This document shows positions 17,343-20,049 of a DNA stretch of 64,000 nucleotides, piece by piece. The stretch spans positions 201,005 to 265,004 of the forward strand of contig NZ_JACHHI010000002.1 of assembly GCF_014207605.1 (NCBI RefSeq), given 5' to 3'. The notes under the pieces were generated by a model. The model made no database searches, was not told where the DNA came from, and worked only from the letters and a program-made list of their open reading frames with translations. The position numbers and the translations under genes are program-made. The first letter of the stretch is position 1. Each line of letters opens with the position of its first letter. This DNA is from Negativicoccus succinicivorans. GTDB taxonomy: Bacteria > Bacillota > Negativicutes > Veillonellales > Negativicoccaceae.

Positions 17343-18031
17343 TGGAGACAGATATCGACGCGCTGCTTGAAGATTTGCGCGCGTATACGAGCCAAAATGT
17401 CGCGAATCCCTGGCGCGAGCAGAACGAGACAGAACTCGATTTGCCGGGCGCGGCGGCGCGGCGGCGCGACTACCTGCGCCGTTACCTGGCGGTGCGGACC
17501 GCGCCGCGCGTGTTGCTGCTGGCGGAGGCGGCGGGCTATCAGGGTTGTCGCTTTTCCGGCATCGCGCTGACCTGTGAACGCATGCTTTTGGGACACCACA
17601 AACGCGTCGGTCCGCAGGATATTTTTCTGACGTCGGAGACGGTTGAACGCACGTCGCGCGTGACGGACGAAATGCCGAACACGCGTGCCCAACTCGGTTA
17701 TAACGAACCGACGGATACCATGGTGTGGCAGGCGGCATTGGACGCGGGATTGCGACCGGAATCATTCTTACTTTGGAATATTTTTCCGTTTCATCCGCAT
17801 CCGGCGACGAATCCGCTCGCCAATCGCACGCCGCAGGAGGCGGAACTCGACGCGGGACTGATATTCGCGCGACGGATCATCGACATGTATCGGCCGCCGC
17901 TGATTTTCGCGATCGGGCGCAAAGCGCAACAGATGCTCGCGCAGGGCGGGATTCCAAGCGTCGCGTTACGCCATCCGGCGAATGGCGGTGCGACTGAATT
18001 TCGGCGCGGCTTTCAGCAAGCCATCCAATAA
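17342..18031 (+). CDS. Uracil-DNA glycosylase superfamily protein
   Basis: The 229-residue protein has VLLLAEAAGYQGCRFSGIAL, which corresponds to the water-activating motif A of the uracil-DNA-glycosylase fold, and ALRHPANGG at the C-terminus, the HPxxxG motif B. LWNIFPFHPH fits the middle beta strand. Motif A lacks the usual acidic residue of family 4 or 5 enzymes, so substrate and activity are open. No Fe-S cysteine set is visible. It is coupled to the GT39 gene and shares an operon with xth, consistent with base-excision repair. Confidence 0.75.
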   Translation: METDIDALLEDLRAYTSQNVANPWREQNETELDLPGAAARRRDYLRRYLAVRTAPRVLLLAEAAGYQGCRFSGIALTCERMLLGHHKRVGPQDIFLTSETVERTSRVTDEMPNTRAQLGYNEPTDTMVWQAALDAGLRPESFLLWNIFPFHPHPATNPLANRTPQEAELDAGLIFARRIIDMYRPPLIFAIGRKAQQMLAQGGIPSVALRHPANGGATEFRRGFQQAIQ

Positions 18032-18060
18032 AAAAACACCTCAGCGAGGTGTTTTTTTAT
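18029..18060. terminator. Bidirectional terminator between the UDG and larE-like genes
   Basis: AAACACCTC-AGC-GAGGTGTTT with A and T runs, between convergent genes. Confidence 0.85.
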
Positions 18061-18868
18061 TATCTTCATGATCATAGCGGCCGCTTCGGTAACCGTCGGG
18101 CGCGAATTGCACAGCCGCGATACCGCATTGACGCACGCATTGCAATAATTTTTGTTTGCGTTTCGCGGAGATGCGCGCCAGTCGCTTCGCATCCGCTTCA
18201 ATCGTCGCGGCGCGACCGTCATAGCGCAACCGCAGCGGTTCGCCCAACACGGTGCGCAAAAGAGTTTCCATTACCGCGACTTTAGTCAATGTCGGCGCGT
18301 CGAGTTCGGTTCCGTACGGAAAGCGGGTGGCGAGACAGGGCACGGCCGGTTTATCCCAAATGGACAGACCGAGATGACGGGCGACATCGCGAATGTCCGC
18401 TTTCGTAAAGTTCGCGCCGAGGTAAGGCGAAGTCACGGGCAGTTCCCGCAGCGCCCGCAAGCCCGGCCGGTATTGACCGAGATCGTCGATATTGCTGCCT
18501 TCCCAGACCGCCCGGTAACCGTGCGTGCGCGCGTATTCCAGCAAAGCGGCGAAGCGGCGATACTTGCAATGATAGCAGCGATCGGGCGCGTTGTGCGCGA
18601 CGGCCTCACAGTCGAGATCCGGCGTCGGCCATTCCATGTGACGAATGCCGTGGCTGGCGGCAAAGCGGCGGGCCGCGATGCGTTCCACAGGCGGGAGCAG
18701 CGGACTCACGCAGGTGACGGCGAGCAAATGGTCGCCGAGCATTTGGTGACCGAGGTACGCGAGTAGCGAAGAATCGATGCCGCCCGAATAGGCGAGCACG
18801 ACGCGTTCGTCGGCTTTTAACAGTCGGCGCAGACGCGTCAGTTTAGCGAGCGTTTCCGGCGTGAGCAT
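18041..18868 (-). CDS. larE: LarE-type ATP-dependent sacrificial sulfur transferase
   Basis: This 275-residue PP-loop enzyme resembles LarE, which adenylates a pyridinium carboxylate and inserts sulfur when the nickel-pincer cofactor is made. Visible motifs are the ATP-binding YSGGIDSS (27-34), NAPDRCYHCK (93-102), EGSNIDDLGQYRPG (123-136) and KPAVPCLATRFPYGT (173-187). Cys98, Cys101 and Cys178 form the three-cysteine set described for [4Fe-4S]-dependent LarE homologues; that assignment is inference. The start ATG lies inside the last codons of the RuBisCO-like gene (26-base overlap), so the pair is translationally coupled. No larA, larB or larC is in the window. Its partner here suggests a different sulfur-transfer task. 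Confidence 0.85.
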   Translation of the reverse strand: MLTPETLAKLTRLRRLLKADERVVLAYSGGIDSSLLAYLGHQMLGDHLLAVTCVSPLLPPVERIAARRFAASHGIRHMEWPTPDLDCEAVAHNAPDRCYHCKYRRFAALLEYARTHGYRAVWEGSNIDDLGQYRPGLRALRELPVTSPYLGANFTKADIRDVARHLGLSIWDKPAVPCLATRFPYGTELDAPTLTKVAVMETLLRTVLGEPLRLRYDGRAATIEADAKRLARISAKRKQKLLQCVRQCGIAAVQFAPDGYRSGRYDHEDNKKTPR

Positions 18869-19997
18869 AGATCGTTTCGACGCCTGCCAAAAAGCGGCGC
18901 GTGTTCTGTTTGATATCGGGACTTTCGCGGAACAGCGCTCCGCCGACGAGGTACATAATATCGTCACCGTAGAGTTCCGACAATTCAGCGATCGCGTCGA
19001 GCGTCATGCCGCCGCCGATGGCGGGCAACAGCGGTTGGCAATTTCCCCACGCGCAGAGCGCGCCGTCACGGCTCGCCAGACAGGCGTCATTGCGCACGCC
19101 GAAACGGCCGCCGCCTCCCACGACGATGACGCTGTCGGCGCCGGCCAAGCGCGGAAACAAACCGTTATAGACGAAGGGGGAAATCACCGGTCGCGGACCG
19201 CGCACCATCGGGCCGCTCCATGACGGGTGGCAGACAATGGGCAAGGTGAAGTCGGGATGCTTCGCGAGTTCATGCACGCTGCCCCAACCGGTCAAGGCGG
19301 GCGCTACCATGATTCCGTTCGCGCCGAGCTCTTGCGCGCACAGAGCGCGTTCGACTAATTCCGCGCCGGCGCTTGTGATGTTCGGCAAATACGCTGTATG
19401 GTGACCGGCTTGCGCGTTGGCGTTCGCGACCGCGTCGACGCAAACCGTCACGCGTTCCCGAAAGGGAGAAAATTTTTGATTATGTAAGCTGTGGTCGTCT
19501 TTAATCACGGCCACGCCCGCGCGGGCGAAGGCGCTCGCCATGGCGGCGAATTCGCGGCTGCTGTGACCGATGGGTTTGAGCACCGCCATCACCAACGGTC
19601 CGGCGGGTACCTGCCAATAGTCGCGCAAACCGGTAAGACCGTACCGCGGACCGGGGTATTCGGCGGCGAGTTCCGGACTCAATGTGAAATCCAGCAAGCG
19701 CGTTTTCATTTGCAACGAAGAATTTCCGTATACCATATTCAAAAGCTGTAAAATTTCACCCTGTACCGCTTCGGCGGGGTAACTGATGGTGACTTTCCAT
19801 TCCGTTTCATTAAACGGTTCGAGGGCTTCGATACGGCCGGTCATTTCGTCGGCGTACCAGGTGCCTTCCACCAATTCGTAGGGATATTCAATCGTCTGTT
19901 CGACGGCGAGATTCTGAGCGAGCTGCTCCGCGGCGGCGCGATCGTTCGCGGTGACGGCGTACGCGGCCTGCCAGCGGGGAAGAGATAAATGCGTCAT
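18843..19997 (-). CDS. RuBisCO-like protein (form IV)
   Basis: This 384-residue protein has the N-terminal ferredoxin-like domain and the barrel of the RuBisCO superfamily. MAVLKPIGHS (137-146) keeps the catalytic Lys (K141) but has Ile where RuBisCO has its second Lys. VIKDDHSLHNQ (164-174) keeps the carbamylated Lys (K166) and one Asp, but the metal-binding Glu is His169. The loop-6 Lys is absent: VVGGGGRFG (292-300) keeps only the phosphate-binding glycines. It therefore should not fix CO2 and is more likely an enolase, isomerase or decarboxylase on a phosphorylated sugar-like compound. I start at the ATG 7 bases after AGGAGG, not 21 bases further up. It is the first gene of an operon with a LarE homologue; no methionine-salvage genes are near. 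Confidence 0.9.
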   Translation of the reverse strand: MTHLSLPRWQAAYAVTANDRAAAEQLAQNLAVEQTIEYPYELVEGTWYADEMTGRIEALEPFNETEWKVTISYPAEAVQGEILQLLNMVYGNSSLQMKTRLLDFTLSPELAAEYPGPRYGLTGLRDYWQVPAGPLVMAVLKPIGHSSREFAAMASAFARAGVAVIKDDHSLHNQKFSPFRERVTVCVDAVANANAQAGHHTAYLPNITSAGAELVERALCAQELGANGIMVAPALTGWGSVHELAKHPDFTLPIVCHPSWSGPMVRGPRPVISPFVYNGLFPRLAGADSVIVVGGGGRFGVRNDACLASRDGALCAWGNCQPLLPAIGGGMTLDAIAELSELYGDDIMYLVGGALFRESPDIKQNTRRFLAGVETIYAHAGNAR

Positions 19998-20049
19998 AAA
20001 GACCTCCTTTATTGCCACTATCTTATCACGGATAAAGGGGCACGCGTGA

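Follow-up and report, generated by a model that had tools for sequence, protein, structure and literature searches.

In R. rubrum and R. palustris, a RuBisCO-like protein (RLP) of the DeepYkr type isomerises 5-methylthioribulose-1-phosphate, and a cupin then frees methanethiol and deoxyxylulose-5-phosphate (PMC5893883, PMC4958253). Two RLPs occur in R. palustris, namely RLP1 (DeepYkr) and RLP2 (Photo), and Veillonella and Dialister were named in 2018 as having both the RLP and the cupin gene, so that the shunt gene set is already known for these two genera (PMC5893883). In addition, five species that lack Dxs were found to hold both shunt genes, and a substitution for Dxs was proposed there as untested (PMC10663253); the general idea that the shunt replaces Dxs is therefore not new, with the species not being named in the main text of that paper. 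With respect to LarE, the three cysteines of the Thermotoga maritima protein hold a [4Fe-4S] cluster (PMC9283937), whereas LarE of Lactiplantibacillus plantarum (5udq family) sacrifices a single cysteine. Here, we describe a gene pair of Negativicoccus which encodes an RLP together with LarE. We conclude, with a probability of roughly 80%, that each of the two proteins belongs to a different, already known pathway and that the two genes are probably located on one transcript.

Organisation of the gene pair

The window, i.e. the whole stretch of 64,000 nucleotides that was analysed, is part of the Negativicoccus genome (1.41 Mb, ten contigs). Both genes are located on its minus strand, the RLP gene at 18843-19997 (384 aa, ATG at 19997) and the LarE gene at 18041-18868 (275 aa, ATG at 18868), and they overlap by 26 bases (18843-18868, minus strand). 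A check on the sequence confirmed the open reading frames, the strand, the order with the RLP gene first and the overlap as they were given in a first-pass annotation of the locus. Translational coupling of the two genes via this overlap is likely. The RLP gene is preceded by a strong ribosome-binding site (AAAGGAGG, 20003-20010, minus strand), and a terminator-like inverted repeat with A/T tails (AAAAAAACACCTC-GCT-GAGGTGTTTTTTT, 18030-18058, minus strand, i.e. running from 18058 to 18030) closes the two-gene unit at the end of LarE, both according to a reading of the sequence. The repeat was not listed by the terminator scan, probably because the T run was counted as stem, and the scan for consensus promoters and terminators revealed nothing above shuffles. 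A riboswitch joining the RLP and LarE genes was sought across the whole window, without an Rfam match.

LarE and the other Lar genes

LarE matches TIGR00268 with 255.2 bits (cut-off 150). It contains a PP-loop (SGGIDS at 28), Cys98 and Cys101 in a C-x2-C arrangement, Cys178, and LRLR at 212; the PP-loop and the three cysteines had been read correctly before. The protein has the SGGxDS PP-loop and the CxxC...C ligands in common with T. maritima LarE (PMC9283937). With L. plantarum LarE it shares the fold family, the match (109 bits) extending over almost the entire protein, but it differs from this protein in being of the three-cysteine cluster type. Judged by these sequence features, it is predicted to act as the sulfur transferase, of the [4Fe-4S] type, in the synthesis of the nickel-pincer nucleotide (NPN).

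LarB and LarC had been noted as absent, which holds for the window, yet not for the genome, in which LarA (G000:C3:230969), LarB (G000:C1:219423), LarC1 (G000:C3:52775) and LarC2 (G000:C1:219019) are all encoded outside the window. LarE is thus not an orphan lacking LarB and LarC, since both are located elsewhere in the host genome. As with LarE of T. maritima, LarA, LarB and LarC are encoded in the same genome; in contrast to that system, the Negativicoccus LarE gene is not part of a lar operon, its partner genes are scattered, and two unlinked genes make up LarC. These two distant genes are found at L094:8701-9474 and L095:7975-8430, with LarC2 adjoining LarB, and the LarC parts are about 486 kb apart in the single-contig genome of Negativicoccus massiliensis. 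The models nearest to the host LarA are those of the malate racemase LarAH6 and of LarAH10, and its scores are below the cut-offs of both. In the cofactor route, LarB would make pyridinium dicarboxylate nucleotide, LarE would add sulfur to that nucleotide, LarC, encoded by two unlinked genes, would insert nickel, and the cofactor would serve a LarA-type hydroxyacid racemase. The presence of LarA, LarB and LarC in the host genome fits the previous suggestion that an enzyme encoded at another site receives its thio-cofactor from LarE.

Co-occurrence and genomic context of LarE

In each of 55 genomes, LarE and LarA were either both found (41 genomes) or both missing (14 genomes), and all of the 14 Lar-free genomes have kept the RLP gene. 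LarB and strong LarC matches split in the same way as LarE and LarA, except in the incomplete genome G314, which shows LarE and LarA only. The Lar losses concern at least three families and several genera and do not represent one event, with the counts referring to genomes and not to independent events. Since the occurrence of LarE follows that of LarA, and RLP is kept without the Lar genes, LarE belongs to nickel-pincer cofactor synthesis. A joint RLP-LarE pathway was rejected, because the Lar genes are gained or lost as a set, whereas RLP is retained. Such a shared pathway had been put forward in the first-pass annotation, which named LarA, LarB and LarC elsewhere in the genome as a result against it; these genes were indeed found there, and LarE tracks their presence and not that of RLP. 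What appeared to be a new two-enzyme sulfur pathway hence resolves into two known ones, and the neighbourhood alone was misleading. This account is based on the presence and co-occurrence of the genes, their assignment to families, conserved motifs and a predicted fold, from which we infer the reactions, the co-transcription and a neighbourhood that is not functional coupling.

The adjacency is not due to chance, nor is it restricted to this strain, a possibility that had been raised against a shared pathway; it occurs in 15 genomes of 6 genera and 3 Veillonellales families (3 genomes of the Negativicoccus family, 2 of family f3 and 10 of family f4). In one genus (g12), two genomes with dispersed Lar genes show the order RLP-LarE-hydrolase (L067, L072) and two Lar-free genomes show RLP-hydrolase (L069, L070), LarE being missing at the same place, which indicates that LarE was dropped with the rest of the Lar genes while the shunt gene RLP stayed. 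The RLP-LarE pair looks like a tolerated neighbourhood rather than a functional coupling.

In a tree of 49 LarE sequences, which is midpoint-rooted and has some long branches, the sequences from lar operons form a clade apart from a dispersed lineage, and the RLP-linked copies fall into the latter. Members of this dispersed lineage are found near RLP-cupin-MetY in L052, L056 and L064. The recurrence of LarE next to sulfur-salvage genes seems to exceed chance, hinting at a shared regulation or history, and beyond these two the assignment to two pathways does not explain it. LarE of the dispersed lineage could additionally function in the methylthioadenosine route, e.g. in the handling of sulfur released by the shunt, and be kept close to RLP, cupin or MetY for that reason, which would agree with its repeated closeness to these genes in differing arrangements and with genomes in which one LarE copy belongs to a lar operon and a further copy lies near sulfur genes. 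We consider this unlikely, since LarE without LarA occurs in 0 of 55 genomes, 14 genomes keep RLP without LarE, LarE without LarB and LarC is confined to the one incomplete genome (G314), and the Negativicoccus protein keeps the residues of NPN-type LarE. A literature search combining RuBisCO-like proteins and LarE returned no relevant paper.

Two further arrangements of this kind were observed. In three Negativicutes, LarE of the dispersed lineage immediately follows a gene for a MetY-like protein of the O-acetylhomoserine sulfhydrylase family (L160:4792-7077, L161:7064-9294, L178:4949-7371), and in three genomes of one genus a shunt-type cupin gene is located directly upstream of LarE-LarB-LarC (L168:6937-10652, L169:6137-9930, L170:6717-10493).

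Family and putative function of the RLP

The RLP matches PF00016 with 84 bits. Its closest solved relative by sequence is 3qfw (190.9 bits, 34% identity), followed by MtnW structures with 115.8 bits. The titles in the structure search give Rhodopseudomonas palustris as the source of the RuBisCO-like protein 3qfw and identify 2qyg as R. palustris rlp2. Because R. palustris has two RLPs and 2qyg is one of them, 3qfw should by elimination be the DeepYkr protein RLP1, with the R. palustris strain of 3qfw being assumed; a literature search on 3qfw gave no relevant paper. The structure search with the predicted model (pLDDT 91) resulted in fold scores that tie across the superfamily, MtnW proteins included, and it is therefore the sequence match that decides on the subgroup.

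Lys141 and the K166-D167-D168-H169 stretch are present as previously reported. However, His169, which had been regarded as odd, turned out not to be peculiar in an alignment check, since it is invariant in the RLP orthologues and 3qfw: KDDH occurs in 45 of 45 alignment rows, and Cys306 in the C-terminal part is equally invariant in these rows including 3qfw, whereas the row of the MtnW protein 2oek in the same alignment shows KDDE and Ala at those sites. KDDH plus Cys as a mark of the subgroup is derived from the present 45-row alignment and is not a published definition. By its sequence, the protein is assigned to the DeepYkr-type RLPs. The N. massiliensis contig encodes an RLP with 95% identity, which was the sole relative in the contig scan. 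Form III or bona fide RuBisCO was rejected based on 130.8 bits against a cut-off of 497.45 bits and on KDDH in place of the metal-binding KDDE.

Elsewhere in the host genome, MtnP and MtnA are encoded in one run (operon) with two further genes, and a gene for a cupin methylsulfurylase is located away from the RLP gene. Since these three are present, the RLP is most likely a putative 5-methylthioribulose-1-phosphate 1,3-isomerase. Taken together with the DeepYkr match, these genes make it very likely that the RLP acts on a sulfur-containing sugar phosphate, as had been anticipated from the locus itself. The host cupin is 52% identical to a Negativicutes cupin (L060), whose gene is found just downstream of an RLP gene with one open reading frame in between. 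Across 58 genomes, the cupin was detected in 47 of the 51 with RLP and in 0 of the 7 without it (Fisher p about 1e-6, uncorrected for the kinship of the genomes).

The Negativicoccus RLP thus shares its sequence subgroup with R. rubrum Rru_A1998 and R. palustris RLP1, KDDH and the invariant Cys306 with 3qfw, and the accompanying cupin, MtnA and MtnP with the shunt of both species. In contrast to these organisms, the Negativicoccus cupin gene is not located beside the RLP gene, MetY was not found, and LarE adjoins RLP. In the proposed shunt, MtnP and MtnA would turn methylthioadenosine, which arises as a by-product from S-adenosylmethionine, into 5-methylthioribulose-1-phosphate, which the RLP would convert to 1-methylthioxylulose-5-phosphate; the cupin would split the latter into methanethiol and 1-deoxyxylulose-5-phosphate, which would enter the MEP isoprenoid pathway. 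MetY, which would complete methionine salvage, had no match in the host genome at the threshold used, and therefore the methanethiol may be lost and not recycled, i.e. the route in Negativicoccus may end in methanethiol loss.

The RLP could instead act mainly on 5-deoxyribulose-1-phosphate, derived from the radical SAM by-product 5'-deoxyadenosine, and yield 1-deoxyxylulose-5-phosphate directly without a cupin; the isomerisation chemistry would be identical, and four genomes (G324, G305, G314, G316) have RLP and no clear cupin. The cupin in the host genome and in the large majority of RLP genomes (47/51) fits a methylthio substrate instead, and we give the deoxy substrate little credence. Even less probable is an MtnW-type enolase of oxygen-dependent methionine salvage, which belongs to the same superfamily and whose models do match the RLP (PRK09549 with 171 bits, the MtnW model with 119.7, i.e. 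about 120 bits), since these values are far under the curated cut-offs of 409 and 513.6, respectively, the RLP has His where MtnW keeps Glu, and Negativicoccus belongs to an anaerobic lineage.

Entry into isoprenoid synthesis

Dxr and IspG are encoded side by side in the host genome. The DXS model, on the other hand, matched only the second (C-terminal) subunit of a split transketolase in this genome (the genes concerned lie at L195:4839-6613 and L207:4866-8161), and the outcome was the same in the single-contig N. massiliensis genome, with only the split transketolase and with Dxr present. The search was able to detect DXS, as longer DXS-like proteins were found in G373 and others. With Dxr present and DXS undetected in the host genome, the shunt could be the source of 1-deoxyxylulose-5-phosphate (DXP). 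It is conceivable, if somewhat doubtful, that in Negativicoccus and several other Veillonellales the RLP-cupin shunt is the only DXP source, which would render a RuBisCO relative essential for all isoprenoids. If true, the RLP would represent the entry point to isoprenoids, and we regard this lead as more valuable than the gene pairing.

Two genomes of one genus (g8, family f3, probably Megasphaera; G333 and G345) have Dxr, and DXS, RLP and cupin are all absent, from which it follows that another DXP source must exist there. Close to LarE, both harbour an additional split transketolase pair (L199:4816-6572, L211:1409-3234), which is a candidate maker of deoxyxylulose phosphate.

In three of the genomes without a clear cupin (G305, G314, G316), the RLP gene is located behind a transketolase/DXS-like pair, and such a pair together with RLP may represent a version of the shunt that does without the cupin. 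A literature search on RuBisCO-like proteins, transketolase and methylthioribose found none. At five loci, a split transketolase/DXS-like pair is immediately followed by an RLP gene (L041:5095-8184, L049:4723-8110, L059:5053-8137, L068:7015-10087, L192:1694-7125), and a Pararhizobium plasmid carries the run mtnK-mtnA-transketolase/DXS-like pair-RLP.
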